From NCBI RefSeq assembly GCF_003073135.1, contig NZ_PGDQ01000011.1, forward strand, positions 62,001 to 126,000: a DNA stretch of 64,000 nucleotides, given 5' to 3'. Position 1 is the first letter of the stretch. Every line of letters starts with the position of its first letter. A model generated the notes under the pieces. That model was not told where the DNA came from. It saw nothing but the letters and a program-made list of their open reading frames with translations, and made no database searches. Shown piece after piece: positions 12,378 through 32,155 of the stretch. The DNA is from Euzebya rosea (GTDB lineage Bacteria > Actinomycetota > Nitriliruptoria > Euzebyales > Euzebyaceae). Made by a program: the position numbers and the translations under genes.

Positions 12378-13778
12378 TCAGGTGCCGGGCGGGGGCACGC
12401 AGGGGAAGGGCGCCGGGAAGAGGCACTCCTCCTCTGCGGGAGGGTCCTCGCCGTCGGCAGGCGGGTCCTCCTCGTCGGCGGGCGGGTCCTCCTCGTCGTC
12501 GGCGGGCGGGTCCTCCTCGCCGTCGCCACCGGTGATGATGTCGATGATGTCGCCGACCGGCAGCGGCGTCATGCCGAGCAGGTCCTGCACCTCGGTCAGC
12601 GCACCGAGCAGCAGCAGGGCCGCGGCCTCGCAGGCGAGCAGGTTGACGAAGGAGGTGCAGATGACCGGGGCACCGCCGAGGTCGGCCAGCGTGTCGGGCA
12701 GCCCCTGCACGAGGTAGGCGATGGTCTCCGTCGGGAGGATCAAGCCGTCGGTGAGCAGGATCGGGCCGTTGTAGAGCCCGCCGTTGGCCGCGGCGGCGAA
12801 GCCGGGCACCCAGACGTCGTCGCGGCCGTCGACCTCCGCGAGCAGCAGGCGGTCGAAGTCGGAGACCGACAGGTAGCCGCGTGCGGCGGCGACCGCGACG
12901 GCGGTGGCGAACCGGTTGACGCCGGCCACCCGCTCGACGGTGATCCCGAGGCCCTCGAGCTGTGTGACGACGGCGGGCGAGATGGCCTCCTCACCACCGA
13001 TGACGGTCACCGTGGTGATGTCGGCACCCTCGAGGTAGGTCCGCAGCGTCGGGGTCAGGACCTCGGTCTGGGTCAGGAGGATCGGGATGCGGTCCTCCGC
13101 GGCCCAGGGCCCCACGGAGAGGCTGTCGACGTAGGCCTGTGCGTCGTCCCCGCCATCTCCCGGGTAGGCCCGGGCCACGATGGCACTGGTCGCGTCGGGC
13201 ATCAGGCCGGCGGCCACCTCGACGGCGGTCTCGATGCGGGTGGGGCCACCGAGGCGGTCGACCCGCAGGTCGAGCCCCTCCAGCTGGGCCACCACGTCAT
13301 CGGATATGGCGGAGGTGTTGCCGAGGACCACGACCTGGGTGACGCCGAGCCGCTGGAGCTCCTCGACCACGCGAGGGTCCAGCTCGTCCTCTGCGGTGAC
13401 CAGCAACGGCGCCTGGAGGACGCCCTGGGCCCCACCGCTGGACAGCGAGTCGGGGAAGATGGTCGACCGGCTGATCATCGCCACGGGCGACATGCCGTCG
13501 GGGAAGGTCGCCTTGGACAGGTTGATGGCGGCCTCGACCCCGTCGTTGCCGAGCAGCTGCACGGCGTTGTCCAGCGGGATGTCGCCGATGGCCCCGACCA
13601 CGCCGTCCTCGACCTGGTCGATGATGTCGGTGAGCGGGTCCTCCAGCTCCGGGGGCAGGTCCGGGATGGGGATCTGGCCGACGACGTCACCGATCTGAGC
13701 GCTGGCCGCTCCCACGGGGCCGAGCACGGTGACGGACAGGACGAGGAGGATGCTGAGCGCGCGGAGGACTGGCTTCAT
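12378..13778 (-). CDS. Secreted CWB2 protein with acidic Pro-rich tail
   Basis: The 466-residue protein starts at ATG 13778 (MKPVLRALSILLVLSVTVLG, signal cleavage near ASA). An N-terminal segment with IPIPDLPPELEDPLTDI is followed by three CWB2 repeats (about 75-400; VVVLGNTSAISDDVV, VTVIGGEEAISPAVV, and the linking V-R-L-G-G-P-T-R-I-E-T motif). The C-terminal tail repeats D/E-E-D-P-P-A four to five times and ends in a Cys-containing FPAPFPCVPPPG. No catalytic domain is present, so the CWB2 units plus tail are the whole mature protein, suggesting a structural wall component. It is divergent from the helicase gene. Confidence 0.87.
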   Translation of the reverse strand: MKPVLRALSILLVLSVTVLGPVGAASAQIGDVVGQIPIPDLPPELEDPLTDIIDQVEDGVVGAIGDIPLDNAVQLLGNDGVEAAINLSKATFPDGMSPVAMISRSTIFPDSLSSGGAQGVLQAPLLVTAEDELDPRVVEELQRLGVTQVVVLGNTSAISDDVVAQLEGLDLRVDRLGGPTRIETAVEVAAGLMPDATSAIVARAYPGDGGDDAQAYVDSLSVGPWAAEDRIPILLTQTEVLTPTLRTYLEGADITTVTVIGGEEAISPAVVTQLEGLGITVERVAGVNRFATAVAVAAARGYLSVSDFDRLLLAEVDGRDDVWVPGFAAAANGGLYNGPILLTDGLILPTETIAYLVQGLPDTLADLGGAPVICTSFVNLLACEAAALLLLGALTEVQDLLGMTPLPVGDIIDIITGGDGEEDPPADDEEDPPADEEDPPADGEDPPAEEECLFPAPFPCVPPPGT

Positions 13779-15767: not shown

Positions 15768-17351
15768 TTAGTTGCCGCCACCGAGCACGCCGCCGACGAC
15801 ATCGGTGACCGGGTCGAGCCCGCCGGCACCGCCGCCGGTGACGCCGTCGACCGCGCCGAGCGGGTCGCCCAGCAGGCCCTCGACGTCCGGCAGCTCGACG
15901 CCGGTGACCTGCTCGATGACGTCGAGGAGGTCGCCGACCAGCGGCAGGTCGGTCAGGTCCAGGTCCAGCAGGTCGACCGCGTCCAGCAGGTCACCCAGGA
16001 GCAGCAGGCCGGCGGCCTCGCAGGCGATCGGGCTGACGAAGCTGGCGCACACGGTGGCCGGGCCGCCGTCGGTCAGGTTGGCCTCCAGGCCCTCGGTGAT
16101 GAACGACATCGTCTCGGCCGGCAGGACGTCACCGGCGGTCAGCAGGACCGGGGCCCGGTGGGTGGCGCCGTGGGCGGCGCTGGCGAAGCCGGGGGCCCAC
16201 ACGTCGTTGCGGGAGGAGGTGCCCTCGGCGAGGATCAGCCGGTCGGCGTCACCGGAGTTGGCGAAGCCGCGCTCGTTGGCGACGGCCACGGCGGTGGCGT
16301 AGCGGTTGGAGCCCGAGACACGACGGGTGGTGATGCCCAGCGCCTCGACGGCCTGCTGCGTGGCGCCCGACACCGCGGTCTCGCCGCCGATGATGACGAC
16401 CTCGGTGATCGCGGAGTCGGTCAGGTAGCTGGCCACGGACGGGGTGAGGGTGTCGGTCTGGGTCAGGAGGACGGGCCAGTCGTTCTCGGCGGCCCACGGG
16501 CTGACGGCGAGGAGGTCGGCGTAGGCCTGGGAGTCGTCACCGTCGGCGGAGTACGCGCGGGTCAGGACGGCCGTGGTGGCGTTCGGCGCGGTCTCCGCGG
16601 CGGCCAGGGTTGCGGTCTCGACTCGGCTGGGGCCGCCGACGCGGGTCACGTCGAGGCCGGCGATCTGCAGCTTCTGGACGACGAGCGGGTTGATGGCGGA
16701 GTCGGCCCCGAGGATGACGAGGCGCTCGACACCGAGGCGAACGAGCTCGCGGGCGGTGCGGCTGTCGAGGTCACTGGAGCCGGTGAGCAGCAGCGGAGCG
16801 TCGAAGATCCCCTGCAGGGCGCCGGTGGTCAGCGCGTCGGCGAAGACGTCGTCACGGGCGATGATCGCGGTGTCGGAGCTGTCGTAGGTCGCCTGGCTGA
16901 AGGCGATGGAGGCGTCGACGGCGTCCTCGCCCTGGAGTGCCAGCAGGTTCGGCAGGATCACGTCGGCAAGGACGTCGGTGATGATCCCGTCGAGCTGGTC
17001 GATGATGCCGGTGACGGTGTCGAGGATCGGGTCTGCCGGGTCCAGGATCGGGCCGAGGCCGTCGAGGATGTCGGTCAGGTCGTCCAGGATGCCGGTCGGG
17101 TCATCGATCACGTCGGTCGGGTCGGTGGGCAGGTCCGGCAGGCCGGGCACGAGCGGGTCGACGACGTCCTCGATCGGATCCAGGACCGGGTCCAGCGGGT
17201 CGAGGACCGGGTCCAGCGGGTCGAGGACGGGATCCACGATCGGATCGACGATGGGCAGGTCGGGGATGATGGGGAGCTGGGCCGACACCGGCCCGGCGAT
17301 CAGGGCAGCGCCGAGGACACCGGCGAGGAGAGACAAGCGGGAACGCGTCAT
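15768..17351 (-). CDS. Secreted CWB2 protein with Asp-Pro repeat domain
   Basis: The 527-residue protein starts at ATG 17351 with a signal peptide (LSLLAGVLGAALIAGPVSAQ). Residues about 25-120 are a low-complexity region built on V/L-D-P units (VLDPLDPVLDPLDPVLDPIE) that also contains ILDDLTDILDGLGPILD. Three CWB2 repeats follow (about 150-430; LVILGADSAINPLVV, VVIIGGETAVSGATQ, RVGGPSRVETATL). A glycine-rich tail closes the protein. The architecture parallels the 12378-13778 protein, and paralogy is likely. The D-P repeats may bind cations or form an extended wall stalk; this is inference. Confidence 0.87.
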   Translation of the reverse strand: MTRSRLSLLAGVLGAALIAGPVSAQLPIIPDLPIVDPIVDPVLDPLDPVLDPLDPVLDPIEDVVDPLVPGLPDLPTDPTDVIDDPTGILDDLTDILDGLGPILDPADPILDTVTGIIDQLDGIITDVLADVILPNLLALQGEDAVDASIAFSQATYDSSDTAIIARDDVFADALTTGALQGIFDAPLLLTGSSDLDSRTARELVRLGVERLVILGADSAINPLVVQKLQIAGLDVTRVGGPSRVETATLAAAETAPNATTAVLTRAYSADGDDSQAYADLLAVSPWAAENDWPVLLTQTDTLTPSVASYLTDSAITEVVIIGGETAVSGATQQAVEALGITTRRVSGSNRYATAVAVANERGFANSGDADRLILAEGTSSRNDVWAPGFASAAHGATHRAPVLLTAGDVLPAETMSFITEGLEANLTDGGPATVCASFVSPIACEAAGLLLLGDLLDAVDLLDLDLTDLPLVGDLLDVIEQVTGVELPDVEGLLGDPLGAVDGVTGGGAGGLDPVTDVVGGVLGGGN

Positions 17352-18860: not shown

Positions 18861-21563
18861 TCAAGGGCTGGCGAGCGTGCCGAGGGTGCCGTCCACACGG
18901 ACCTCGCTGCCGTACTTCAGCCGCAGCAGCGACCCCCTGGCGGTGCGGATCAGCGCGCCCTCCTCGGTGACCGATTCGATCGTCCCGGCCAGCCCGCCGG
19001 GTGCCTTCACCTCCAGGCCGACCGAGGCCCGGAAGCGGGGCGCGGAGGTCGTGGCCCTTCCCGGCGTGCGGGCTGGTGTGCGGGCCTTCCGGGTGGTCAC
19101 CGCCCCCGCGGACGGTCGCGGCGCGGCGGATCGTCCGACCAACGCCGGCTTGCCCTCCATCTCGGCGACGAAGCGCGAGGTCCCGGTCGTGGGTGCGACC
19201 ACGACGAGCTGCTGGCTGGCCCGGGTGATGGCGACGTGGAAGACCCGCCGTTCCTCCTCCAGCTCGGCGGCACCGGTTGCCAGCCGGTGGGGGGAGATGC
19301 CCTCGGCCGCACCGACCACGATGACCTTCGGCCACTCGAGGCCCTTGACGCTGTGGATGGTCGACAGGGTGATGGCCGGTCCGTCGGGGTCGGGCTGGGC
19401 CACGACCTCGCGCAGGAACTCCGGGAAGCGGGCCGCCTCGGTGCAGTGGTCGGCCACCTGGATCAGGGCCTGCAGGTCATCGATGTGGGACGCCCCGGCC
19501 GCACCACCCCCGGCCACGGCATGGTGGTCCAACGACTCGGCGACGTCGCCGAGGCCGACGACATCGGTGATGTAGCGCAGGACCTCGGCGGTGGGCTGGC
19601 GCAGCGCCCGACGGCGCAGCACCTCGATGTCACGGACGAAGTCCTGCAGCGCCCGTCGTGGTCCACCACCGTCGAGCCCGTCGACGAACCGGCCGAGGGA
19701 CTCCACGGTCCATGTCCGGCGTCGCAGCGGATCCTTCAGCGAACCCGGGATCGGCCTGAGCGGCCGGTGGAGGACCTCCGCGAGGTCCTCGCCGGACAGG
19801 TGGTCGTCGCAGGCCAGCCGCAGGTAGGCCAGCGCTGCGCGCACGCCGGTGCGGGCGAGCAACCATTCCCCGATCGGGCTCCGGCAGGCGATCCCGCGCG
19901 TCGACAGCTCGGCCTGGGTCCCGAGCAGCGCCACGCGGACCCTCGCGAGGACGGCGATGTCGGTGGGGTCGACGTCGTCGTCGAGCCACCCCTGGACGGT
20001 CTCGCCGACGGTCCGCGCCTCGGCGTGCCGGTCCAGCCGGTGCACGGTCACCGGGGTGTCGGCGGCGCCCTCCCGGGGTCGGATCTCCTTGTCGAGGCGA
20101 ACCCTGTTGTTGCCCAGCAGCTGCACGGCCCCCTCGACGACGGGGGCGGGGCAGCGGTAGTTGACGGTCAGCGGGTGGTCCGTCGCGCCAGGGAACAGCG
20201 TGTCGAAGTGCAGCAGGTAGGAGGGCGTGGCTCCGGCGTGGCCGTAGATGACCTGGTCGTCGTCGCCCACCCCGAAGCACTGCAGCTGGGGGCTGGCGAG
20301 CAGGCGGATGTACAGCAGGTAGGCCGGGGTGAGGTCCTGGAACTCGTCGACCAGCACCTGGCCGACGCGGGCCTGCTCGGCGGCGCGAACCGCCGGGTCG
20401 GTCAGCAGCAGCTCGATCGCCCGGTGCACCATCTCGGGGAAGTCCACGGCGTTGCGGCGGGCGAGCTGCGCCCGGTAGGCGAGGAACACCTCGGCCAGCC
20501 CCTCGACCTCGTCGTGGTCCTCCTCGACCTCCTCCGGGTCGACCATGGCGATGCGGACCCGCTCGAGCGCATCGATCCATGCCTGCATCGGGTCGACGTT
20601 GGCGCGGCGCGGGACCTCGACGAGGCCGGAGAGGATGCGGCGGACGTCGCGGTCCCCGAGCACCTCGACGTCGCCGAGGTGGCGGCGCAGCAGCCCGAGG
20701 GCATGTGCGTGGACCGTGGCCACGCGCGCACCCGGGACGGGGCAGCGTTCGCGCAGCTCGGCGGCCGCCTTGGTGTTGTAGGCCAAGACCAGCACCGACT
20801 CGGCGGGGACGCCGCGGACACCCAGCACCTCCTGGATGCGGGCGCTCAGCACCCGGGTCTTCCCCGACCCGGCCGGCGCGGCGACCCGGACCGCCCCGCC
20901 GGGGGCGGTGACGGCCGCAGCCTGGTCGGGGGCGAGGCCTCGAGTCGGGTCCAGGGGGCGGTTGGTCGGCAGGGCCATGCGTCCGGCTTCGGTGTCGTCG
21001 CGGTGCAGCACGACGGCGTCGAGGTCGAGCGGTTCGCGGGGCCCGCCGTCGATCCATGCCGGCCTGCCGTCGGGCAGCGTCACGTCGGCCTGGCCCCCCG
21101 CCGTCAACGAGGGCAGGGCGCGGGTGGCCTTGACGGTGTGCCACCAGGTCGGCTCGTCGCCGCGACAGTCGACGGTGTTGGCCCACACCAGGTAGGCCAG
21201 CCGATCGAGGGCGAAGAGGAAGCGGGGGTCGTGACGGTGGACCGGCTCGGTGGACCTCGTCGGTGCCTGCAGCGCCCGGGGGTCGACCGCCAGCTCGACG
21301 ACGTAGGGCTGCCGGGTGACCCAGAGGCGGTGCAGCCGGTCGACCGTGGCTCCCGGATCGGCCACCACACGGTCGTCGACGACGACGCGTGGGGCGTCAC
21401 CGACCCATGCGGGCGGGCTCTGGCCGGGCCGGACGATGGCCCCCCGGCCGAGCAGCGCCGGAGCGGCCACCGTGGGCCGGTCGACGGCCCGGTGCAGGAC
21501 GGGCCGGGACGGTGCATGGCTGGGCGCGCCGCCGGGTTCGGCGGCTGGGGCAGGACCGGTCAC
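18861..21563 (-). CDS. UvrD/Rep-family superfamily I DNA helicase
   Basis: The 900-residue protein has the SF1A helicase motifs: Q-motif region LAPDQAAAV, Walker A APAGSGKTRVL, motif II VLVDEFQDLTPAY, motif III GVGDDDQVIYGHAGA, motif IV LTVNYRCPAPVV, motif V STIHSVKGLEWPKVIVV and motif VI VFHVAITRASQQ. The first about 240 residues precede Walker A and form an extra N-terminal domain not found in plain UvrD. The GTG start overlaps the nurA stop (GTGA, 4 bases), so it is the last gene of the sbcD-sbcC-nurA operon. A role in unwinding broken DNA ends with that set is a reasonable inference. Confidence 0.9.
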   Translation of the reverse strand: MTGPAPAAEPGGAPSHAPSRPVLHRAVDRPTVAAPALLGRGAIVRPGQSPPAWVGDAPRVVVDDRVVADPGATVDRLHRLWVTRQPYVVELAVDPRALQAPTRSTEPVHRHDPRFLFALDRLAYLVWANTVDCRGDEPTWWHTVKATRALPSLTAGGQADVTLPDGRPAWIDGGPREPLDLDAVVLHRDDTEAGRMALPTNRPLDPTRGLAPDQAAAVTAPGGAVRVAAPAGSGKTRVLSARIQEVLGVRGVPAESVLVLAYNTKAAAELRERCPVPGARVATVHAHALGLLRRHLGDVEVLGDRDVRRILSGLVEVPRRANVDPMQAWIDALERVRIAMVDPEEVEEDHDEVEGLAEVFLAYRAQLARRNAVDFPEMVHRAIELLLTDPAVRAAEQARVGQVLVDEFQDLTPAYLLYIRLLASPQLQCFGVGDDDQVIYGHAGATPSYLLHFDTLFPGATDHPLTVNYRCPAPVVEGAVQLLGNNRVRLDKEIRPREGAADTPVTVHRLDRHAEARTVGETVQGWLDDDVDPTDIAVLARVRVALLGTQAELSTRGIACRSPIGEWLLARTGVRAALAYLRLACDDHLSGEDLAEVLHRPLRPIPGSLKDPLRRRTWTVESLGRFVDGLDGGGPRRALQDFVRDIEVLRRRALRQPTAEVLRYITDVVGLGDVAESLDHHAVAGGGAAGASHIDDLQALIQVADHCTEAARFPEFLREVVAQPDPDGPAITLSTIHSVKGLEWPKVIVVGAAEGISPHRLATGAAELEEERRVFHVAITRASQQLVVVAPTTGTSRFVAEMEGKPALVGRSAAPRPSAGAVTTRKARTPARTPGRATTSAPRFRASVGLEVKAPGGLAGTIESVTEEGALIRTARGSLLRLKYGSEVRVDGTLGTLASP

Positions 21564-22567
21564 GACGGGTTGCTCTCCGCCGCCCGGGACGCGAGCAACG
21601 GACGGACCACGGCGGGGCGCCCGAGCAGGCGCCGCAGCTCGCGTTCGAGGCTGCGGATCGGCATCAGGTTCTGGGGAGCGCGGGGGTCGACGTGGGGTTC
21701 GGAGGCGAAGGGCGGCAGGGTCGCGGCCACCCGGTCGGCGAACGCGCTCGTGGCGCCCATGGTGGTGTCCGGCCCGACCGACAGCTCGATGCGGGCGACG
21801 CAGGACCCCGGGTCGGCGACGGCCGGGGGCAAGGGGTCGGACAGGGCCAGGTAGAAGGACAACCGTCGGCGCTGGGCGTCGGTGGTGAACAGGGGTGTGC
21901 GTTCACCACGTCGCAGCTGCCGCTGGATGCCCTGCAACGACTCGGGCAGGTAGACCCGATGGGCGCGCTTGGCCAGGCCGACAGCGGCAAGGGGTCGGGA
22001 GCGGGCGTGCAGGAGCCCGTCGTAGACGGTCAGCACGTCCCTCCCGTCGGGTGCGGGGAGGACTCCGATGCGATCCTCGAGGCGTCGGCGCGCGAGGCCC
22101 AGCCGTTCGCGGAGCGCCATCGGGTCGGGGTCGCGGATGACGTCGGCGGCGTCCCCCTCCTCCACCGGCGTCTCCGGCGCCTGTGGCCGCCAGGTCAGGT
22201 TGCCGGCGATGATCGGACCAAGGCTGCGGGCGTCGGAGAACACCCCACGTTCGAGGACGACCCGGTCGAGCACGGCGCCGTCGGCGCTGCAGCTGACAAC
22301 CCCCGCGGCCCACGACGCGACGAGCCCCGGGAGCGGCCGGTCGCGGTCGGGGTCGTTGATCCAGATGACGGCGTCGCTGGCCTGCACCCCGTCGATGAAC
22401 CGGACCGTCTCGAACGGCGGCGTGTCGGCGTGCGGGGTGATCGGCGCCCAGTCGTGGGCAGGCGCCTCGACCTCGACGTCGACCGCATCGACCGCATCGA
22501 CGTCCATCGGCTCGGGTTCGTAGGGGAAGGCGTAGTCCGACTGCCAGCTGTCCAGCCTGAAGCGCAT
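21560..22567 (-). CDS. nurA: NurA-like 5'-3' nuclease
   Basis: The 335-residue protein fits the NurA pattern: RFIDGVQASDAV (Asp about 59), VYDGLLHARSRP (Asp about 183), GLAKRAHRVYLPES (Lys about 200), ARIELSV (Glu about 261) and DPRAPQNLMPI near the C-terminus (Asp about 294), followed by the helical LERELRRLLG. NurA is the nuclease partner of HerA and, in archaea, works with Mre11-Rad50 in resecting double-strand breaks. The ATG lies one base after the sbcC stop and its own stop overlaps the helicase start, so it is embedded in an SbcCD operon. A HerA-like ATPase is encoded at 28912-30642. Confidence is limited by the divergence of NurA sequences. Confidence 0.75.
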   Translation of the reverse strand: MRFRLDSWQSDYAFPYEPEPMDVDAVDAVDVEVEAPAHDWAPITPHADTPPFETVRFIDGVQASDAVIWINDPDRDRPLPGLVASWAAGVVSCSADGAVLDRVVLERGVFSDARSLGPIIAGNLTWRPQAPETPVEEGDAADVIRDPDPMALRERLGLARRRLEDRIGVLPAPDGRDVLTVYDGLLHARSRPLAAVGLAKRAHRVYLPESLQGIQRQLRRGERTPLFTTDAQRRRLSFYLALSDPLPPAVADPGSCVARIELSVGPDTTMGATSAFADRVAATLPPFASEPHVDPRAPQNLMPIRSLERELRRLLGRPAVVRPLLASRAAESNPS

Positions 22568-22568
22568 G

Positions 22569-24983
22569 TCAGAGGTCCACCCGTTCGATGCGGCTGCCGC
22601 TGGCGGTCCGGTGGACCACGAACCGGGTCGGCAGGCGCTCGGCCATCTCTGCGACGTGCGTGACGACACCCACCGTCCGGTCGCCAGCGCCGAGCTGCTC
22701 GATGGCACCCGCCGCGATGTCAAGCGTCTCGGGGTCCAGCGCGCCGAACCCCTCGTCGATGAACAACGACTCCAGCGCCACCTGTCCGCTGGCGGACACG
22801 GCGATCTGCTCGGCGAGGGACAGGGCGAGCGCAAGGGAGGCGAGGAACGTCTCGCCGCCGGAGAGGGTACGGACGCTCCGCGGGGCACCGGCGCTGGCCA
22901 GGTCGGCGACGGCGATCGAGCCGTTCCTGCCGTCGAGCACCAGCTCGTAGCGACCGCTGGAGAGGGCACGCAGCTGCGTCGACGCACCAGCGACGAGCGC
23001 CCGGGTTGCCTCGTCGAGCAGCCAGCGCTGGAACTGGTCGGTCCGCAGCAGACGGGCGAGCTCACCACCGACCGCAGCCTGTTCACGGGCGTCGGCCTCG
23101 TCGGCGCGCAGGTTGTCGGCGAGCTCCAGCATCGTGGTCAGCCGGTCGCGTTCGGCGGCCAGGTCGGCCCGCCGCTGGACCGCCCGGTCACGCGGGTCCC
23201 CGGTGCCCTCGGGGATACCGGCGTCACGGCAGGCCTGCTCCATGCGGGCACGAAGGGCCGATCCCTCGACCTTGGCGGACTCCACGGCCTGCTCGGCCTC
23301 GGTCGCCTCCTCCCTGCGGGCCGGCAGCTCGGCGACGGCCCATTCGTGCAGGGCCGTCCAGTCGACCACGACGTCGCCGTCCAGCGCCGGTGGGTCGAGC
23401 TCGGCGACGGACAGCCGCAGCCGGTCGAGTGTGCCGGACAGCCCCTTGCCCTGGTCGGTCAGCTTGGTCCGATCCCTCGTCGCCCGCTCGAGGTCGCTGC
23501 GAGCCTCCGCCACGGTGCGACGCAGTCCGGCGAGCTGCTGCTCGACCTTCCGCGCCGTCTCGATCCGCTCGCGGGCCTCCGCCTCCGACGGCTTGCCGTC
23601 CAGCTGGGCGCGGTGGGCGGCGAGCCGGTCCTCCGCCGCCTTCAGGGCCGTCTCGGCCGCGGCGATGTCCTTGGTCGCCCGGGCGTGTTGCCCCTCCAGC
23701 GTGCCGACCGCTCGGTTGGCCTCGGTCATCCGGGTCGCGGCGGCCTGCAGGACGTCCTGCCCGGCGGCCGCGCCCCCAGCGAACGCCGGGGCGTCCTCGG
23801 CCAGCGTCGCCGCGCAGACGGGGCAGTCGTCGCCGGGAGCCAACCCGTCGACGGCCTGGACCGCCGCATGGTCCCGGTGCGCGGCCCGCTGGGCGGCCGC
23901 GGCCGCCTCGACCTCGCTCCGGGCACGGCCCAGCGCGGTCTCGACACGCGCAAGCTCGGCCCGGGAGTCGGCCAGCGTGGTCGTGGCCGTCTCGACCGCG
24001 GCGGTGCGCTCGGGGGTGCGCTGGTGCAACGCCACGACGGTGGACAGCTGCTCGGTCTCCGACGCCGACGGCAGGTCCGACTCGGCCTTCGCGAGGTCCG
24101 CTTCGGCGGCGGCGACCGCTGCGGTGGCCTTCTCCACGGCGAGGTCGGCGATGGACAGCCGTTCGCCGTGTTCGCGGACGGCCTCGGGCGGTTCGCCGAT
24201 CGCGGCCAGCCGCGCGACCCGGTCGGTGGCCCGCCTGGCGACCTCGGCGGCGTCGCGGAACCGGTCACGGATGTCCTGCAGCGTCTCGGTGTCCGCGGCG
24301 AGGTCGGCGACGAGCGTGTCCAGCGACTGCACCTGGGCGGCGAGGGCGGCAACGCGTTCGGCGTCGACCCGGCCGAGCTGGGCCAGCTGGTGGCTGGTCT
24401 GCTCGGCGCGTTCCTGGGCGCTGCGGGCGTGGGAGCCGGCACGTTGCTTGACGCGGTCGTAGATGCCGACGCCGAGCAGCCGGGACAGCAGGGCCTGCCG
24501 TTCGGCCGGCTGGGCCCGCAGGACGCGGGCGAACTCGCCCTGCGGCAGGACGACGGCCCGGGTGAACTCGTTGAAGGTCAGCCCGACGAGCCGTTCGACC
24601 TCGACGGTGACGTCGTCGGCGGTGCCGGCCAGGACGGCGACGACTGCCCCGTCGTCGTTGAGCTGCTCGAGCGCCGCTTCGAGGGTGCTGGCGCCGGTCT
24701 TGGTGCGACGCACGGTGCGGACGGCACGGTAGGGCCGTCCCCGGACGGTGAAGGTCAGCCCGACGGTGCACTCGTTGGCGTTGGTGGAGATGGCGGGTGC
24801 GATCTCGTTGGCGTGCAGCCGCGGGATCCGTCCGTACAGCGCCAGGGTCATGGCGTCGATGACCGACGACTTGCCGGCACCGGTGGGGCCGACGAGCGCG
24901 AACAACGACACGTCGTCGAATCCGAGGACCACCCGTTCCCGGAAGGCGGTCAGGCCCTCGATGATCAGCTCACGCGGCTGCAC
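22569..24983 (-). CDS. sbcC: SbcC/Rad50-like SMC-family ATPase of the SbcCD nuclease
   Basis: The 804-residue protein has Walker A GPTGAGKSSVIDAM at about 32-45 and the Q-loop segment VVLPQGEFARVLRA. Two long coiled coils (about 190-380 and 400-600) flank a zinc hook CPVC (about 387-390). The C-terminal half-site has LSGGETFLASLALALSLAEQ and the Walker B region LFIDEGFGALDPETLD. Rad50/SbcC dimerises through the zinc hook and controls the SbcD nuclease at DNA ends and hairpins. It lies 41 bases downstream of sbcD and one base upstream of nurA. Its length is shorter than E. coli SbcC but usual for actinobacterial forms. Confidence 0.95.
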   Translation of the reverse strand: MQPRELIIEGLTAFRERVVLGFDDVSLFALVGPTGAGKSSVIDAMTLALYGRIPRLHANEIAPAISTNANECTVGLTFTVRGRPYRAVRTVRRTKTGASTLEAALEQLNDDGAVVAVLAGTADDVTVEVERLVGLTFNEFTRAVVLPQGEFARVLRAQPAERQALLSRLLGVGIYDRVKQRAGSHARSAQERAEQTSHQLAQLGRVDAERVAALAAQVQSLDTLVADLAADTETLQDIRDRFRDAAEVARRATDRVARLAAIGEPPEAVREHGERLSIADLAVEKATAAVAAAEADLAKAESDLPSASETEQLSTVVALHQRTPERTAAVETATTTLADSRAELARVETALGRARSEVEAAAAAQRAAHRDHAAVQAVDGLAPGDDCPVCAATLAEDAPAFAGGAAAGQDVLQAAATRMTEANRAVGTLEGQHARATKDIAAAETALKAAEDRLAAHRAQLDGKPSEAEARERIETARKVEQQLAGLRRTVAEARSDLERATRDRTKLTDQGKGLSGTLDRLRLSVAELDPPALDGDVVVDWTALHEWAVAELPARREEATEAEQAVESAKVEGSALRARMEQACRDAGIPEGTGDPRDRAVQRRADLAAERDRLTTMLELADNLRADEADAREQAAVGGELARLLRTDQFQRWLLDEATRALVAGASTQLRALSSGRYELVLDGRNGSIAVADLASAGAPRSVRTLSGGETFLASLALALSLAEQIAVSASGQVALESLFIDEGFGALDPETLDIAAGAIEQLGAGDRTVGVVTHVAEMAERLPTRFVVHRTASGSRIERVDL

Positions 24984-25024
24984 GGGGACCCCCCTCGCGT
25001 GCGGTCGTGGACGGCCAAGTCGGG

Positions 25025-26200
25025 TCAGGCGGCGGCATGGCTGCCCTCCTCGAGTCCGAGCTCGTCCTCGAGCAGCTCGGCGAACAACGCCGGGATCCGC
25101 TCGTCCTCGACCTGCCGTTCCTCGAGGAACGCGGCGAACAGCTCCTGCGGCGGGCGGCCGATGCGTTCGGTGGCATCGACCCGGAGGTCATCGGCACGTG
25201 TGTCGAGCCGGACGTCGACCACGTGTTCACCGAGCCGGTCGCGCACGGTGTCGGCCACGCCGGCCGGGACGGCACCGGTCAGCAGGACGCGAAGCCACGG
25301 GTCGTCGTCCGGGACGTCGATCGCCATGACCTCCTCCAGCGTCCCCCTGAACGTGCGCAGCGGCCGGCCAGCGACCAGCGGCACCTCCTCGACCCGGACC
25401 GGCTTGCCGGAATCGAGCTCGGCGATGGTGGCCGAGCAGGGCTTGTCGGACTCGCCGAAGTCCATCATCAGCGGCGCACCGGCGTACCGAACGGGAGGCG
25501 CCGACCCGACCTGCTGGGCCACGTGCAGGTGCCCGAGGGCGACGTAGTCCAGCACCTGCGGGAACGCCCGGGGGTCGACGCAGTAGCGCTCGATGGTGTG
25601 GGCCTCGCGCTCGCCCCCGCCCCTGAGGCCACCGAACGCGGTGACGTGGCCGACGAGGACGTTCAGCTCGGTCGGGTCCATGTCGCGGCACAACCCCTCG
25701 GTGAAGCGGGTGTACAGCCCGGCGTACTGGGCGCCGTACTCGCCGTCGGCCTTGTCGCCGTCGAGCAGGTCGGCCGCGCGCACGGCGGCACGGTGGTGCA
25801 GGAACGGCAGCATGGCGACGTTGACGGGCGTGCCGTCTGCCGCCTCGACACGGACGACCCCCCCGTCGTCGGGGCGGCGCATCGACCCGACGGCGTGGAT
25901 GGCGTTGGCTGCCAGGAGCTGGCGGACCGCTTCGAGCCGGCGGGGGTTGTCGTGGTTGCCCGCGATGGCCACGACCGGGGCGACGGCGGCCAGGTCCTGC
26001 ATGGCCTTCCACACGATCTGCTCGGCCTCGGGCGACGGGGCCTGCACGTCGAACTGGTCCCCGGCGACGATGACCAGGTCGACCTCGCGTCGTGTGGCGA
26101 CGTCCACGATCTCGGCGAGGACCGCACGATGTTCGTCGGCGCGGGACCGCCCCCTGATGGTGCGACCCACGTGCCAGTCGGCCGTGTGGAGGATCTTCAT
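25025..26200 (-). CDS. sbcD: SbcD/Mre11-like exonuclease
   Basis: The 391-residue protein begins MKILHTADWHVGRT, the first metallophosphoesterase motif (D-x-H). Motif II is VIVAGDQFD, motif III IAGNHDNP (GNHD), then VLVGHVTAFGG and DYVALGHLHVAQQ supply the remaining metal ligands. A capping domain follows at about 280-391. Mre11/SbcD cuts DNA ends in an Mn-dependent manner under control of SbcC. It is the first gene of a minus-strand operon sbcD-sbcC-nurA-helicase. The ATG at 26200 starts exactly at the conserved domain; upstream codons look non-coding. Confidence 0.95.
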   Translation of the reverse strand: MKILHTADWHVGRTIRGRSRADEHRAVLAEIVDVATRREVDLVIVAGDQFDVQAPSPEAEQIVWKAMQDLAAVAPVVAIAGNHDNPRRLEAVRQLLAANAIHAVGSMRRPDDGGVVRVEAADGTPVNVAMLPFLHHRAAVRAADLLDGDKADGEYGAQYAGLYTRFTEGLCRDMDPTELNVLVGHVTAFGGLRGGGEREAHTIERYCVDPRAFPQVLDYVALGHLHVAQQVGSAPPVRYAGAPLMMDFGESDKPCSATIAELDSGKPVRVEEVPLVAGRPLRTFRGTLEEVMAIDVPDDDPWLRVLLTGAVPAGVADTVRDRLGEHVVDVRLDTRADDLRVDATERIGRPPQELFAAFLEERQVEDERIPALFAELLEDELGLEEGSHAAA

Positions 26201-26410
26201 GCCAACACGGTAGGGCGTGGGTGCGACATCGCCGCTGACCGTCCGGCGACCGATGGTCGGGCGTCGGCAGGTCGACACGGGGTCGACCAATTCGATGAAT
26301 CACGTTCATGAAAGCTTCACGGGCTGTACGGTCCGAATGGCGTTCACACCGCGCCGGTGAACCCGGCAGCCCTGGCGGACACGGTGGGCGGACTGACGGA
26401 GGGTCAAGGC

Positions 26411-28771
26411 ATGGTCAACGAAACCCGAAGGCCGCGAGCGCTGAGCGTGCTCGCCATGCTCGCGATGACGGCTGCGTTGCTGGTCGTCGTCCCGGCGCTG
26501 ACGAGCGCCCAGACACCACCCGATCGACGCCTCGCCAACACCACCGACCCGGTGCAGGCGTCCATCGACATCTCCACTGAGTTCTTCACCGCCAACGACA
26601 CGCGTGTGAGCAGCATCATCGTCGGTCGCTCCGACGTCTTCGCCGACAACCTCGGCGGCTCGTCGCTGGCCGGCGTGCTCGGCATGGGCCCGCTGCTGCT
26701 GAACCCGACGACGATGCTGGACAGCCGCATCCAAGCGGAGATCACCCGCGTCCTCCCTGCCCCACGTCCCTGCGCCGGCGCGGGCGACCGTGGCCAGGTC
26801 ATCCTCCTCGGCGGCGTCGCCGCCCTGTCGCAGCAGGTGGAGAACTCCATCCGCGCGCTCGGGTACTGCACGACCCGCTTGGCCGGCGCCGGACGCGTCG
26901 AGACGTCCGTCGAGATCGCCAGGCTGTTCACGCCGACGTTGACCAGCCCCCGCACCATCTTCCTGGCCCGCGACAACAACCCCGCGGACTCCGCGGCCGC
27001 CGGTGGCCTCGCCGCGCGCCGCGGCGTGCCGATCCTCGTCAACCCGGTCGCGACCCTCCATCCCGCGATCGAGCAGTTCATCCGTGACTTCCAGATCACC
27101 AACGTGGTGCTGCTCGGCGGGACCGCCGCCCTGTCGCAGGACGTCGAGAACCGACTGAACGCGCTGGGTGCGACCGTGAGCCGGCTGGCGGGCGCGACGC
27201 GAGACGACACCTCTGCGGTGATCGCCCGCGAGTTCACCAACCCGACGCCGACCACGGTCGGCCTGGTCAACGGGTTCAACGACGACGGCTGGACCTACTC
27301 CCTGACCGCCGGCGCGGTCGGTGCACGGGAGAACCTCCCGGTTGTCTACGTCAACACCACCGGCGTCGGCACGCCCGTCGGCAGCTACCTCTGCGACACC
27401 GCACCCGGCGAGATCATCAGCGTCGGTCCGACCGCGGCCATCCCCTCGACGACCAGCGACGCCGCACGAACCCAGGCGAACTGCGCCGGGACGCCTCCGC
27501 CCCCGCCGCCCACGTGCACCGCGTTCACGCCGGTGCCCACCGTGATCCACGCCGAGGACTTCACCGTCCCCGCAGGCTTCAACGCCATCAACCGGATCGT
27601 CCAGCTGCACGCCGGTGACGTGGTGACCATCACGGCCAGCACGAACAACGGCCAGGACCCGTTCCTGCTGCTGGAGGACCCGGCCGGCAACAACATCGCG
27701 ACCAACGACGACGTCGCCCCCGGCGACGTGACGGCCCAGATCAGCCTGCAGGTCCGTCGGACCGGCGGATACCTGATCGAGACGACCGACCTCAACGGTC
27801 AGTCCAACGACGTGTCCCTCCTCGTCGAGTCGGCGCCCGGCCCCGGCGCGATCGAGCTCGCCAACGAGGTCCGGACCATCGCGCCCAACGCGACCCAGGA
27901 CCTGTCGTTCCCGGTCACACGTGGCGAACGGCTGCGGGTCAACGTGCTCAACCTGTCCACTGTCGACCCGGTCGTGGACATCCTCGACCCGAACGCGGCG
28001 CTGCTGGCCACTGATGACGACAGCGGGTTCGAGCTCGAGTCCCTCGTCTCCACACCCATCTTCGATGACGGAACCCACGTGGTGTCGGTCAGCGACCTCA
28101 CCCAGGCCGGCGGTTGTGTCCAGGTCGTGGTGCACGTCTACCCGACGCTTCTGGCCGCGTTCTCCTCGCGCGTGCTGACCCTCCCCCCGAACGCGAACGG
28201 CCCGATCGGCGACGCCGTCGACCTGCTCCCCAGCGAGCGCGTCACGTTCGTCTCGTTCGACCAGAACGGGACGACCGACCCCACGATCGAGCTCCTCGAC
28301 CCGGCCAACAACTCTGTCGGCTTCGATGACGACGGCGGCGGGTTCCCCAACTCGTTGCTCCAGCTGATCCTCAACACCGACGGACTGCACATGGTGGAGT
28401 TCGGCAACCTGACCCCGAACACCGGCTCGGCGCTCACCGAGATGTTGGTCGAACACCGACCCGGTGCGTTCAACGTCATCATCGACTCCGTCACCCTGAC
28501 GGGCGTCACGCCGACCAGCCGCACCGTCGAGCTGCGGGCCGGCGAGCTCTTCGTGCTGGACACGACCGCGGACGACCAGGACGCCGTCGACACCATCGTC
28601 GACATCTTCGACCCCAACGGCAACCTCGTCAGCAATGACGACGACAGCGGATTCTTCCTCGACTCGAGGAACGTGCTGCAGGTGCTCCAGACCGGCACCT
28701 ACCGGATCGACGTCCGTGACCTGAACGGCAACGGCGGCGGCGTGTCGCTGACCGGGTCCGTCCTGTCGTGA
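26411..28771 (+). CDS. Secreted CWB2 protein with PPC-like beta-domain repeats
   Basis: The 786-residue protein starts at ATG 26411 with GGAGG upstream and a signal peptide (SVLAMLAMTAALLVVVPAL, cleavage near TSAQ). Three CWB2 repeats span about 50-350 (IIVGRSDVFADNLGGSSL, VILLGGVAALSQQVE, VVLLGGTAALSQDVE). A Pro run then leads to three or four repeats of about 120 residues with the pattern D-P-x-x-x-L/I-L-D-P/E-x-x-G/N and LYDDDSGF-like turns (TDDDSGFE, FDDDGGGFP, SNDDDSGFF). These resemble bacterial pre-peptidase C-terminal (PPC) beta-domains, which usually bind carbohydrate or collagen. It is divergent from sbcD and sits inside the DNA-repair block without an evident functional link. Confidence 0.87.
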   Translation: MVNETRRPRALSVLAMLAMTAALLVVVPALTSAQTPPDRRLANTTDPVQASIDISTEFFTANDTRVSSIIVGRSDVFADNLGGSSLAGVLGMGPLLLNPTTMLDSRIQAEITRVLPAPRPCAGAGDRGQVILLGGVAALSQQVENSIRALGYCTTRLAGAGRVETSVEIARLFTPTLTSPRTIFLARDNNPADSAAAGGLAARRGVPILVNPVATLHPAIEQFIRDFQITNVVLLGGTAALSQDVENRLNALGATVSRLAGATRDDTSAVIAREFTNPTPTTVGLVNGFNDDGWTYSLTAGAVGARENLPVVYVNTTGVGTPVGSYLCDTAPGEIISVGPTAAIPSTTSDAARTQANCAGTPPPPPPTCTAFTPVPTVIHAEDFTVPAGFNAINRIVQLHAGDVVTITASTNNGQDPFLLLEDPAGNNIATNDDVAPGDVTAQISLQVRRTGGYLIETTDLNGQSNDVSLLVESAPGPGAIELANEVRTIAPNATQDLSFPVTRGERLRVNVLNLSTVDPVVDILDPNAALLATDDDSGFELESLVSTPIFDDGTHVVSVSDLTQAGGCVQVVVHVYPTLLAAFSSRVLTLPPNANGPIGDAVDLLPSERVTFVSFDQNGTTDPTIELLDPANNSVGFDDDGGGFPNSLLQLILNTDGLHMVEFGNLTPNTGSALTEMLVEHRPGAFNVIIDSVTLTGVTPTSRTVELRAGELFVLDTTADDQDAVDTIVDIFDPNGNLVSNDDDSGFFLDSRNVLQVLQTGTYRIDVRDLNGNGGGVSLTGSVLS

Positions 28772-28779
28772 CCCACCGG

Positions 28780-28803
28780 CCGCCCGGCACCCCCGCCGGG
28801 CGG
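28780..28803. terminator. 9-bp GC hairpin after CWB2 gene
   Basis: CCGCCCGGC and GCCGGGCGG pair around a 6-base loop, starting 9 bases after the CWB2 stop codon. Confidence 0.55.
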
Positions 28804-28861
28804 TCCCACGGCCTCGACGGGAGCCGCCCGTCGGACCGAACACCCCGTTGGACCGACACCT

Positions 28862-28888
28862 CGACGCCCGGACAGTGTCCGGGCGTCG
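28862..28888. terminator. 12-bp hairpin between convergent CWB2 and herA genes
   Basis: CGACGCCCGGAC and GTCCGGGCGTCG form a perfect 12-bp stem with the 3-base loop AGT. It lies 23 bases beyond the stop of the HerA-like gene and can act in either direction. Confidence 0.65.
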
Positions 28889-28911
28889 CTCGTCGGCGGC
28901 TTCGGTCCGGG

Positions 28912-30642
28912 TCAGCCGCGGGTGAAGATGTCGCTGTCGAAGGGGTCCTCGTCGCCGTCGAGGGTGACGTCGTAGGCGACCTCCTCGGCGCGGGTCGCCC
29001 AGGCCGGCATCGGGAAGTTGACGACCAGCGGCGCCGGTACGCGGGGCTGCTTGAGGATCATCGTGCCCGGGTTGATCAGCATCGCCCGGTCGCGCTGGCT
29101 CTCGGGCATCCAGCGGTACTCGTTCTTGGTGCCCTCCGCCGGGTCGAGGCGGCCGACCACCTTGATGGCGGCGTTGGACACGATCGCTTCGTCGACCGCC
29201 GACGCGGTCTGCTGGGCGCCGATCAGGATCATGCCGAGCGACCGGCCGCGCTCGGCGATCTCGGTCAGCGTCGACTTGATGGGGCTGTTGCCCTGCCGCG
29301 GGGCGTACTTGTTCAGCTCGTCGAGCACGACGAACAGCAGCGGGTCGCGGGTGCCACGGGCTTCCTTGGCCTGGAACTCCTGCTGCAGCAGCGCACCGAC
29401 CACGAAGCGCTGGGCCCGGCCCGACAGCGGGGTGAGGTCGACGACGTTGACCTGCTCGTCGGAGTCCATGACCTTGACGCGATGGGACCGCCATCCCTCC
29501 TGGTCGCCGCGGATCAGATGGGCGACGTGGTCCGCCGCGGAGTCCAGACGGCGCATGAACGCCCCGATCGACCCGGACGTGGCGAAGCGGCCGACCCACT
29601 GCGGGTCCTCGTCCTCGCAGTAGTCACGGATGATCCGGACGAGGTCGGCGAAGGTGGTGGCCTGCTCGACCCCGATCTGCACTCCGCCCTGCTGCAGCGG
29701 CGTGGCGTGCCGTTCGAGCGCGATCGCGACGTTGCGGGCGACCGCGGTGTACTGCTGCCGTTCGTCGTCGGTGTCGGCGAACAGGAGGCTGAGCATGCCC
29801 TCGGCACAGAAGTCCGCCAGCGACCACCAGTACCCGCGCACCTTGTCCTTGCGGGCGCTGGAGGGCATCGGCGAGACCGCCCCCTTGACGGGCGGCGACC
29901 AGAACGCGACGGACCCGAACGGTTCGGCCGGCAGGCCGACCTCGGCCCAGCGGGCCCGCTGCTCGACGGTCAGCCGGGCGTTGGGCTGGTCGAGGTACAG
30001 CAGGTCCTGGCCCTTGACGTTGAAGATCAGCGCCCGCGCGTGCTTGGCGCTCTTGCCGAGGACCGTCGACCCCCGGTGGAACAGCGCGTGCAGCAGGAAC
30101 GTCGCGTAGCTGGTCTTGGTGGCCACGCCGGAGACACCGGAGATGTTGACGTGGGCGCCGCTGGTGCCGTCGAGGAAGTCCGCGTCGACGTACACGGGCC
30201 CGCCGGCCCGGTGCAGGCCGGCGGCGAGGCGCCTGCCCGGCTCGATCTTGTCGAGGAACATGGCCCGGTCGCGCTTGATCCCCGCGACCTTGCGGACCTC
30301 GTTGCCGGGGACGGGTGGCAGGAACACCTCCGGCTCGAGTCGGGTGGTCAGCACGGTGGCGACCTCCGACGTGCGGCCGTACATCACGCCCGCGGAGACC
30401 TTCTCGACGTCGGAGTGGTACTCGACCCCCTCGTGGAACCCGCGGACCTGTGTGACGACGCCGTAGATGTCGATCGCCCCCTGACCGGGGACGGGACGGG
30501 TCACCGACACGATGTCGTCGAGCTGCAGGAACTGGTCGGCGGCGACGTGGACCTGGAACTCCAGCGGGGTTGCGGCCTCGGTGCCGATCACCCGGCCGGC
30601 GACGGGCATGTCGTCTGGGCTGTCGAGGGGCGAGGTGGTCAT
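28912..30642 (-). CDS. herA: HerA-like hexameric DNA translocase ATPase
   Basis: The 576-residue protein starts at ATG 30642. Residues about 13-110 form the N-terminal beta-barrel (HAS) domain. Walker A is the variant GVSGVATKTS (about 169-178, Lys 176) with Thr where Gly normally precedes Lys. Walker B is LLFVVLDELNKYAPR (Asp-Glu about 441-442), followed by a sensor-like ILIGAQQTASAVDE and an Arg in NEYRWMPESQRDR. HerA-FtsK family ATPases pump DNA and pair with NurA. nurA is encoded 6.3 kb downstream on the same strand, with a CWB2 gene on the other strand between them. The family call is firm; partnership with this NurA is inference. Confidence 0.85.
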   Translation of the reverse strand: MTTSPLDSPDDMPVAGRVIGTEAATPLEFQVHVAADQFLQLDDIVSVTRPVPGQGAIDIYGVVTQVRGFHEGVEYHSDVEKVSAGVMYGRTSEVATVLTTRLEPEVFLPPVPGNEVRKVAGIKRDRAMFLDKIEPGRRLAAGLHRAGGPVYVDADFLDGTSGAHVNISGVSGVATKTSYATFLLHALFHRGSTVLGKSAKHARALIFNVKGQDLLYLDQPNARLTVEQRARWAEVGLPAEPFGSVAFWSPPVKGAVSPMPSSARKDKVRGYWWSLADFCAEGMLSLLFADTDDERQQYTAVARNVAIALERHATPLQQGGVQIGVEQATTFADLVRIIRDYCEDEDPQWVGRFATSGSIGAFMRRLDSAADHVAHLIRGDQEGWRSHRVKVMDSDEQVNVVDLTPLSGRAQRFVVGALLQQEFQAKEARGTRDPLLFVVLDELNKYAPRQGNSPIKSTLTEIAERGRSLGMILIGAQQTASAVDEAIVSNAAIKVVGRLDPAEGTKNEYRWMPESQRDRAMLINPGTMILKQPRVPAPLVVNFPMPAWATRAEEVAYDVTLDGDEDPFDSDIFTRG

Positions 30643-30706
30643 GTGTTCACAATACGGAGGACGTGTGACATCAGCGACGACCCGCCCCGACGGAGGTGAC
30701 CTGCCA

Positions 30707-32155
30707 GTGGCCGACCCGTTCGCGCTCGGAGTCGCCTTCGAGCAGGCGCAGGACCCCGACGACCGGACCCGCCGGGGGGCGTGGTTCACACCCGCACCCG
30801 TGGCCCGCCTGCTGGTCGACCGGGCCCTCGCGGCATGGGCGGGCAGCCGTCCGCCCCGGGTCGTGCTGGACCCGTCGGTCGGTGGCGGGGCGTTCCTCCT
30901 CGCCGCCCACGAACGGCTTCCCGATGCGCGGCTCGTCGGCATCGACATCGACGCCGGAGCCGTCGCCGTGACCCGCGAGGCCCTCGCGCGGGCCGGCGCC
31001 ACCGACGTGGCGCTCGTGCACGGCGACGGGCTGGACCCCTCCTCCTGTCCCGAGGAGGTCGACCTGGTCGTCGGCAACCCGCCGTTCCTGTCGCAGCTGC
31101 GGGCGGCGACCACCCGTGGCGAGGACCGTCGTGCGCGGCTGCGTGGCTGGTACGGCGAGGCGGCCGAGGGCTACGTCGACGAGGCCGGCCTGTTCGTGCT
31201 GGCGGTCAGCCGGCTGCTCGCGCCCGACGGCGTCGCGGTGCTGGTCGTGCCCGAGGCGCTGCTGGCCACCGAGTCGGCGGGGCGGGTGCGCGAGGAGGTG
31301 TCGACGCACTGCGCCGTCGACGTGGTCTGGCGCGACACCGAGGGCGCGTTCCCCGGCGTGCCGACGTGTGCCCTCCAGCTGCGACGGCAGGGACCGGGAT
31401 GGACGGGACCGCCGGGATCGCCGGGGTCGGGCACGGCGTCGTGGGCGTCGTTGCTGGCCGACGACGTCCCGGCGGTGGTCGACCCCGTGGTCGGGGCGAC
31501 GCGGACCGTCGGGGACGTGGCGACGGCGACCGCCGACTTCCGGGAGGCCTACTACCTGGTCGCCGAGCACGTCCGGGAGGCCCGGCCCGGTCACGACGAC
31601 CCCCGCCTCACCCCCGTCGGCCTGATCGACCCCGCCCACCATCGTTGGGGGGCCGCCGCGGTCCGGTTCGCCAAGCAGCGCTGGGACCGGCCGGTCGCCG
31701 TCGGGCTGCCCCCGGCGTTCCTGGCCGCTCGGCTGGGCACCAAGCTGCTGGTCGCCACCCAGACGAAGGTGCTGGAGGCGCTGGTGGACACCGAGGGGGA
31801 CATGCTGCCAACCACCCCGGCCATCACCGTGCGGACCGACCGGCCGTGGCACGTCGGGGCGGCGTTGACCAGCCCGCTGCTGACGGCGCTCGCCGCCCGT
31901 CGCCATGCCGGTGCCGCACGGACGAGGACGGCGCTGAAGCTGAGCGCCGCCCAGGTCCTCGCCCTGCCGCTGCCCGCCGACGGGCCTGCCTGGGACGACG
32001 CGGCCGATGCGTTCCGGGCCGCGCACGGGGCGTCCGCCGTGGCCGACCGGACTCAGCTGCTCCGACGCTGCGGGGAGTCGATGTGGTCGGCCTTCGACCT
32101 TGAGGCCGATCCGGTCGCGTCCGGTTGGTGGGCCCAGCGCCTGCCACGCCGCTGA
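30707..32155 (+). CDS. N6-adenine DNA methyltransferase-like protein
   Basis: About 482 residues. GTG 30707 was chosen because GGAGGTGA, a full anti-Shine-Dalgarno match, lies 7 bases upstream; GTG 30665 would add 14 residues. Motifs of gamma/type I-like adenine methylases are visible: RGAWFTPAPVARLLV (motif X region), LDPSVGGGAFLLAA (motif I, SAM binding) and VVGNPPFLSQL (motif IV, NPPF catalytic). The C-terminal half includes a probable target-recognition part ending in LRRCGESMWSAFDLE. No restriction endonuclease is adjacent. The gene is divergent from herA, the two starts being 64 bases apart. It may be an orphan regulatory or protective methylase; the recognition site is unknown. Confidence 0.82.
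   Translation: MADPFALGVAFEQAQDPDDRTRRGAWFTPAPVARLLVDRALAAWAGSRPPRVVLDPSVGGGAFLLAAHERLPDARLVGIDIDAGAVAVTREALARAGATDVALVHGDGLDPSSCPEEVDLVVGNPPFLSQLRAATTRGEDRRARLRGWYGEAAEGYVDEAGLFVLAVSRLLAPDGVAVLVVPEALLATESAGRVREEVSTHCAVDVVWRDTEGAFPGVPTCALQLRRQGPGWTGPPGSPGSGTASWASLLADDVPAVVDPVVGATRTVGDVATATADFREAYYLVAEHVREARPGHDDPRLTPVGLIDPAHHRWGAAAVRFAKQRWDRPVAVGLPPAFLAARLGTKLLVATQTKVLEALVDTEGDMLPTTPAITVRTDRPWHVGAALTSPLLTALAARRHAGAARTRTALKLSAAQVLALPLPADGPAWDDAADAFRAAHGASAVADRTQLLRRCGESMWSAFDLEADPVASGWWAQRLPRR

Follow-up and report, generated by a model that had tools for sequence, protein, structure and literature searches.

In archaea, herA, mre11, rad50 and nurA form a single operon (Constantinesco 2004, cited in PMC5448004 and PMC12977600). 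Published accounts describe bacterial HerA-NurA as rare and found mainly in the Deinococcus-Thermus group. The Deinococcus radiodurans NurA-HerA complex is known from structures (PDB 7f6d, 7wrw, 7wrx; PMC9960219), and its two genes are described as an operon of their own. Oceanithermus profundus has a published hepA (herA)-sbcD-sbcC cluster, with SbcD and SbcC downstream of HerA, and in the Thermales nurA precedes hepA (PMC5448004). The literature leaves undecided whether HerA-NurA is linked to SbcCD in D. radiodurans and whether it serves resection or defence. Here we analysed a 64,000-nt stretch of Euzebya rosea DNA (contig NZ_PGDQ01000011.1; hereafter the window) that encodes HerA, SbcD, SbcC and NurA on one strand.

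The four functions clustered here are those of the archaeal operon, whereas the Mre11 and Rad50 components are of the bacterial SbcD and SbcC type, the cell also has RecBCD, and structural alignment puts the window HerA at ~15% identity with archaeal HerA. It belongs to the same HerA family as the D. radiodurans protein (42–43% identity, including the TKT Walker A), and the NurA is of the same bacterial type with the same essential residues. The gene order differs from both bacterial precedents: herA lies upstream of sbcD-sbcC, and nurA comes after them, closing the set. Fold, sequence, linkage and co-occurrence establish HerA, NurA and SbcCD as one conserved module, and we consider it likely that the four genes encode a motor-nuclease and SbcCD machine that processes DNA ends beside RecBCD. 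The original prediction had proposed a larger repair or defence complex that also included a UvrD-type helicase and a DNA methylase; the HerA-NurA-SbcCD part of it stands, and the distribution of the other two genes removes them from it.

Identity of HerA, NurA and SbcCD

The herA product matches D. radiodurans HerA (7f6d/7wrw) in profile comparison over positions 6–549 (E 1.5e-192). Its AlphaFold2 (AF2) model, with a predicted local distance difference test (pLDDT) score of 77, matches 7wrw_B in Foldseek at E 4.9e-55, with a template modelling (TM) score of 0.84 over the whole chain, and contains the HAS barrel and RecA-like ATPase of the HerA/FtsK clade. Residues K175/T176 (Walker A), D220 (catalytic), D487/E488 (Walker B) and R495 (channel) of the D. 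radiodurans enzyme have their counterparts here in K176/T177, D213, D441/E442 and R449, and the TR motif has a basic residue, K506. The TKTS Walker A, thought at first to be an unusual trait, is normal for the family: all 15 aligned relatives keep its ATKT core unchanged, and its lysine and threonine are the pair that contacts the beta-phosphate (K175) and the metal (T176) in the crystal structure of D. radiodurans HerA with ADP. A novel ATPase, which might be read from the TKTS P-loop, is ruled out by that structure.

Taken as a single sequence, the nurA product has no match in Pfam or NCBIfam. A profile of its family finds just two sequences in the PDB, D. radiodurans NurA (7f6d_H, 5.5e-46) and Thermotoga TM1739 (1.9e-16), and the NurA model PF09376 is matched by 12 of 17 aligned relatives. 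The AF2 model (pLDDT 86) has the RNase H-like NurA fold, and its top four Foldseek matches are all NurA proteins, from 7f6d (7f6d_G, 1.2e-15), 1zup (two chains) and 2ygk. The protein contains W8, D59, E164, D183, K200, H292 and R296. With the D. radiodurans numbering transferred by hand from the profile alignment, W8, D59, K200 and R296 correspond to W8, D53, K201 and R309 of the D. radiodurans enzyme; D59, K200 and R296 are invariant across the family alignment, and in D. radiodurans D53A, K201A and R309A each abolish nuclease activity. Profile match, predicted fold and retained essential residues identify the gene, as had been proposed, as one for a NurA-family protein with predicted nuclease activity. 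Such genes are easily overlooked by automatic annotation, because the window protein lacks a family match of its own and a Streptomyces copy is labelled 'hypothetical protein'.

SbcD contains the metallophosphoesterase motifs DWHVG, GDQFD, GNHD and GHLH. SbcC combines an ABC ATPase, with the Walker A GPTGAGKS and the signature TLSGGE, with a CxxC zinc hook, CPVC.

Breadth, linkage and co-inheritance of the four genes

The distribution of the genes was assessed in 41 related genomes, in 197 genomes sampled evenly across the phylum and in a collection of named genomes. Co-occurrence of herA and nurA in related genomes had been set beforehand as a check on the prediction, and it was found in both of the first two samples. 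Among the 41 relatives, HerA is present in 20, NurA in 19 and both in 18, the mismatches being genomes of 70–85% completeness (G021, G022 and G024). All 20 HerA genomes have an SbcC match (E 1e-15), as do 3 of the 21 others (Fisher 7.5e-9). In the phylum sample, strong HerA was found in 37 genomes (19%), NurA in 38 and both in 35, leaving two with HerA only and three with NurA only (Fisher 7e-33, ignoring relatedness). The latter three carry a weaker HerA, so that each of the 38 NurA genomes encodes a HerA partner. HerA, NurA and SbcC are co-inherited.

At least 527 contigs or stretches in the named collection encode this HerA. The best 80 were examined, and 57 of these have room downstream; 55 of these show the order herA-sbcD-sbcC-nurA, all on one strand, and of the other two, one starts with nurA and one is without it. 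The loci include Micromonospora, Actinoplanes, Nonomuraea, Longispora and Acidimicrobiia, as well as metagenome bins labelled Gemmatimonadota, Dehalococcoidia, Gammaproteobacteria and others, labels that may be wrong. Across the 57 loci and the window, the pairwise distances of the four proteins correlate at 0.91–0.94 (Mantel p 0.001), to which shared organism history contributes. Initially regarded as uncommon in an actinobacterium, the linkage is therefore the norm in hundreds of bacterial genomes, including many from actinobacteria. The archaeal four-gene cluster and the herA-sbcD-sbcC cluster of O. profundus were already known; the breadth and the strict four-gene linkage go beyond the published accounts in the open-licence literature that we searched, although earlier reports may exist.

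More distant versions of the genes were also seen. The close relative G003 carries two HerA-NurA-SbcCD clusters, the second of them divergent and ordered nurA-herA-sbcD-sbcC, with 29–39% identity (L076, G003:C1:324000-340000), and a further SbcC copy at G003:C2:320407; clusters like L076 occur in G016 and G017. One family of the phylum, f15 (G050, G064, G078, G087 and others), has a divergent HerA subfamily (E ~1e-31 to 1e-56), and a NurA-like partner was detected in 3 of its 11 genomes; the partners may be too diverged or different.

Gene layout and neighbours in the window

The features of the locus are listed in Table 1. Order, strands and spacing agree with the original prediction, as do the family names given to SbcD, SbcC, the UvrD-type helicase and the N6-type methylase, which are upheld by family-model matches. 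On the minus strand, sbcD is followed after 41 bases by sbcC, which is separated by one base from nurA, and nurA overlaps the superfamily 1 (SF1) helicase gene by four bases. The herA gene begins 6.3 kb past the start of nurA on the same strand, and 64 bases separate its start from that of the methylase, which is on the opposite strand.

Table 1 Features of the herA-sbcD-sbcC-nurA locus in the E. rosea window.
Feature	Position	Strand	Basis
herA: HerA/FtsK-type hexameric DNA translocase, D. radiodurans type, 576 aa	28912-30642	minus	profile, AF2 fold, residues
sbcD (Mre11 homologue), ~391 aa	25025-26203	minus	TIGR00619 E 5.7e-49 and motifs; start placed according to homologues
sbcC (Rad50 homologue), 804 aa	22569-24983	minus	TIGR00618 E 1.4e-73 and motifs
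nurA: bacterial-type NurA nuclease, 335 aa	21560-22567	minus	profile, AF2 fold, PF09376 in family
UvrD/PcrA-type SF1 helicase, 900 aa	18861-21563	minus	PF00580 E 2e-41
CWB2 (cell wall binding repeat 2) surface-protein gene, between herA and sbcD	26357-28771	plus	PF04122 E 8.1e-27
N6/N4-type DNA methyltransferase, NPPF motif, 482 aa, divergent from herA	30707-32155	plus	PF02384 2.6e-14; BseCI methylase 3.7e-10

The 2.7 kb that separate herA from sbcD are taken up by a plus-strand CWB2 gene that the original prediction did not mention, so that the set lies on one strand in the window without being contiguous. The same gene intervenes in the close relative G003 and nowhere else, and in G001, of the same genus, herA and sbcD fall on different contigs, at least 5 kb apart. 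These arrangements would fit an alternative in which herA and the sbcDC-nurA-uvrD block act apart in this genus, HerA having drifted, for example towards chromosome pumping, after the surface-protein insertion. We regard this as very improbable, given that G002, also of this genus, retains an uninterrupted herA-sbcD-sbcC-nurA set followed by the helicase gene, and that neither HerA nor NurA has lost its catalytic residues.

The window carries a striking load of CWB2 (PF04122) surface-protein genes, at least five in 64 kb: besides the one in Table 1, they lie at 3531-8843, 12378-13778, 15768-17351 and 37962-40358. One has PKD and glucose/sorbosone dehydrogenase domains, and another PD40 propeller repeats.

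The helicase and the methylase are local bystanders outside the conserved module. The original prediction suggested both as parts of the complex, with self DNA spared through its methylation; methylation-associated defence systems such as MADS are of this kind. It is true that the methylase and herA diverge, with 64 bases between their starts, that the two are no more than a few kb apart in four species of the genus, and that the methylase, SbcC and HerA have superfamily-level matches to the MADS models mad2, mad3 and mad8. Close proximity to herA is, however, confined to this genus. Full methylase homologues occur in 6 of the 41 relatives, one of which (G010) is without this HerA, while in another (G016) the gene is off herA's contig; 14 of the 20 HerA-bearing relatives lack it, so that it does not behave as a conserved component of the set. 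Neither the methylase nor this helicase lies near any of the 80 named loci, and no further MADS-type gene was recognised among the neighbours scanned. We consider this reading very improbable; by the same distribution, both proteins are rejected as subunits.

As for the helicase, its gene adjoins sbcC throughout family f1, including G004 (locus L097), which has neither herA nor nurA; this speaks against its role as a subunit. Its N-terminal ~205 residues matched no family and no PDB entry. In other families, a UvrD-like helicase with these N-terminal 205 residues is encoded near a ResIII/XPB-type helicase gene (L098, L099), and the two helicases possibly form a separate repair pair.

End processing, resection and defence

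In the end-processing machine that we favour, SbcCD (Mre11-Rad50) would recognise DNA ends and nick or trim them, blocked ends included. A HerA hexamer would then grip the duplex and pump DNA into a NurA dimer, which would digest from the end, chiefly the 5' strand, as the D. radiodurans enzyme does. This would leave a 3' single strand on which RecA could act or, in the absence of a brake, lead to full degradation of the end. By analogy with the D. radiodurans and archaeal homologues, we infer complex formation, translocation, strand preference and a hand-over from SbcCD to HerA-NurA; a HerA hexamer on a NurA dimer, and Mn-dependent NurA activity stimulated by HerA, are expected for the family. 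Resection of 5' tails has been reported for the D. radiodurans complex.

This machine would not be the only one of its kind in the cell. A gene for RecC precedes the window by 16 kb (G000:C11:44653-45639), and in several HerA-bearing relatives two long frames lying side by side carry PDDEXK domains and are presumably AdnAB-like; HerA-NurA-SbcCD is therefore an additional end-processing machine. Because of the RecC gene and the lack of anti-correlation between RecC and HerA across the genomes compared, we rejected HerA-NurA as a replacement of RecBCD or AdnAB. Despite RecC, no PDDEXK_1 nuclease domain (PF12705) was found anywhere in this genome, whose RecB nuclease may have diverged, been lost or fallen in a sequence gap.

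Several points weigh against end processing by the four gene products. Deletion of nurA and herA in D. radiodurans raised resistance to UV and mitomycin ~10-fold. The Thermococcus kodakarensis HerA-NurA complex digests both strands, and its authors argue against resection and prefer an antiviral role. Finally, herA and sbcD are probably not co-transcribed in the window, since the opposite-strand surface-protein gene between them makes a shared transcript improbable in this genome.

The T. kodakarensis result would also suit an alternative in which the same complex, a widespread second end machine beside RecBCD or AdnAB, serves mainly to degrade foreign linear DNA (phage or plasmid) from its ends in an uncontrolled way and not to resect ends for recombination. 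Its patchy spread, to 37 of the 197 genomes and alongside RecBCD or AdnAB-like enzymes, is consistent with this, and HerA folds serve the SIR2-HerA and HerA-DUF4297 anti-phage systems. These share the HerA fold with the window protein (Foldseek E ~1e-18), with HerA ~12–16% identical, but use other effectors, and no SIR2 or DUF4297 gene was recognised among the window neighbours scanned. What keeps the alternative in contention is a copy of the operon on a Streptomyces linear plasmid (L196, NZ_CP134205.1 413727-429382), because it adjoins a TIGR02680/TIGR02678/DUF2397 cluster that we take to be Wadjet-like. The plasmid operon also lies beside ImmA/IrrE.

We nevertheless judge linear-DNA destruction to be a rather unlikely main role. 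The four genes are mostly chromosomal and co-inherited, and are rare on plasmids (6 of 72,556 records) and phages. No shared defence gene flanks the 27 loci compared, and no family occurs in more than 4 of 106 flanking proteins. The window surroundings are not a defence island, a possibility that its neighbours, surface proteins and housekeeping genes, rule out. A PADLOC scan gave 95 model matches near the operon and 1 in 20 control stretches, a control that is taxonomically unbalanced; the largest contributors inspected proved to be a pair of related SNF2 helicases and a UvrD-like helicase. We rank resection or repair first and the destruction of incoming linear DNA second.

The proposed end-processing module is encoded by an operon conserved in hundreds of bacterial genomes. 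Cultured genera that carry it, such as Micromonospora and Actinoplanes, are suited to testing the link of HerA-NurA to SbcCD and its role in resection or defence.

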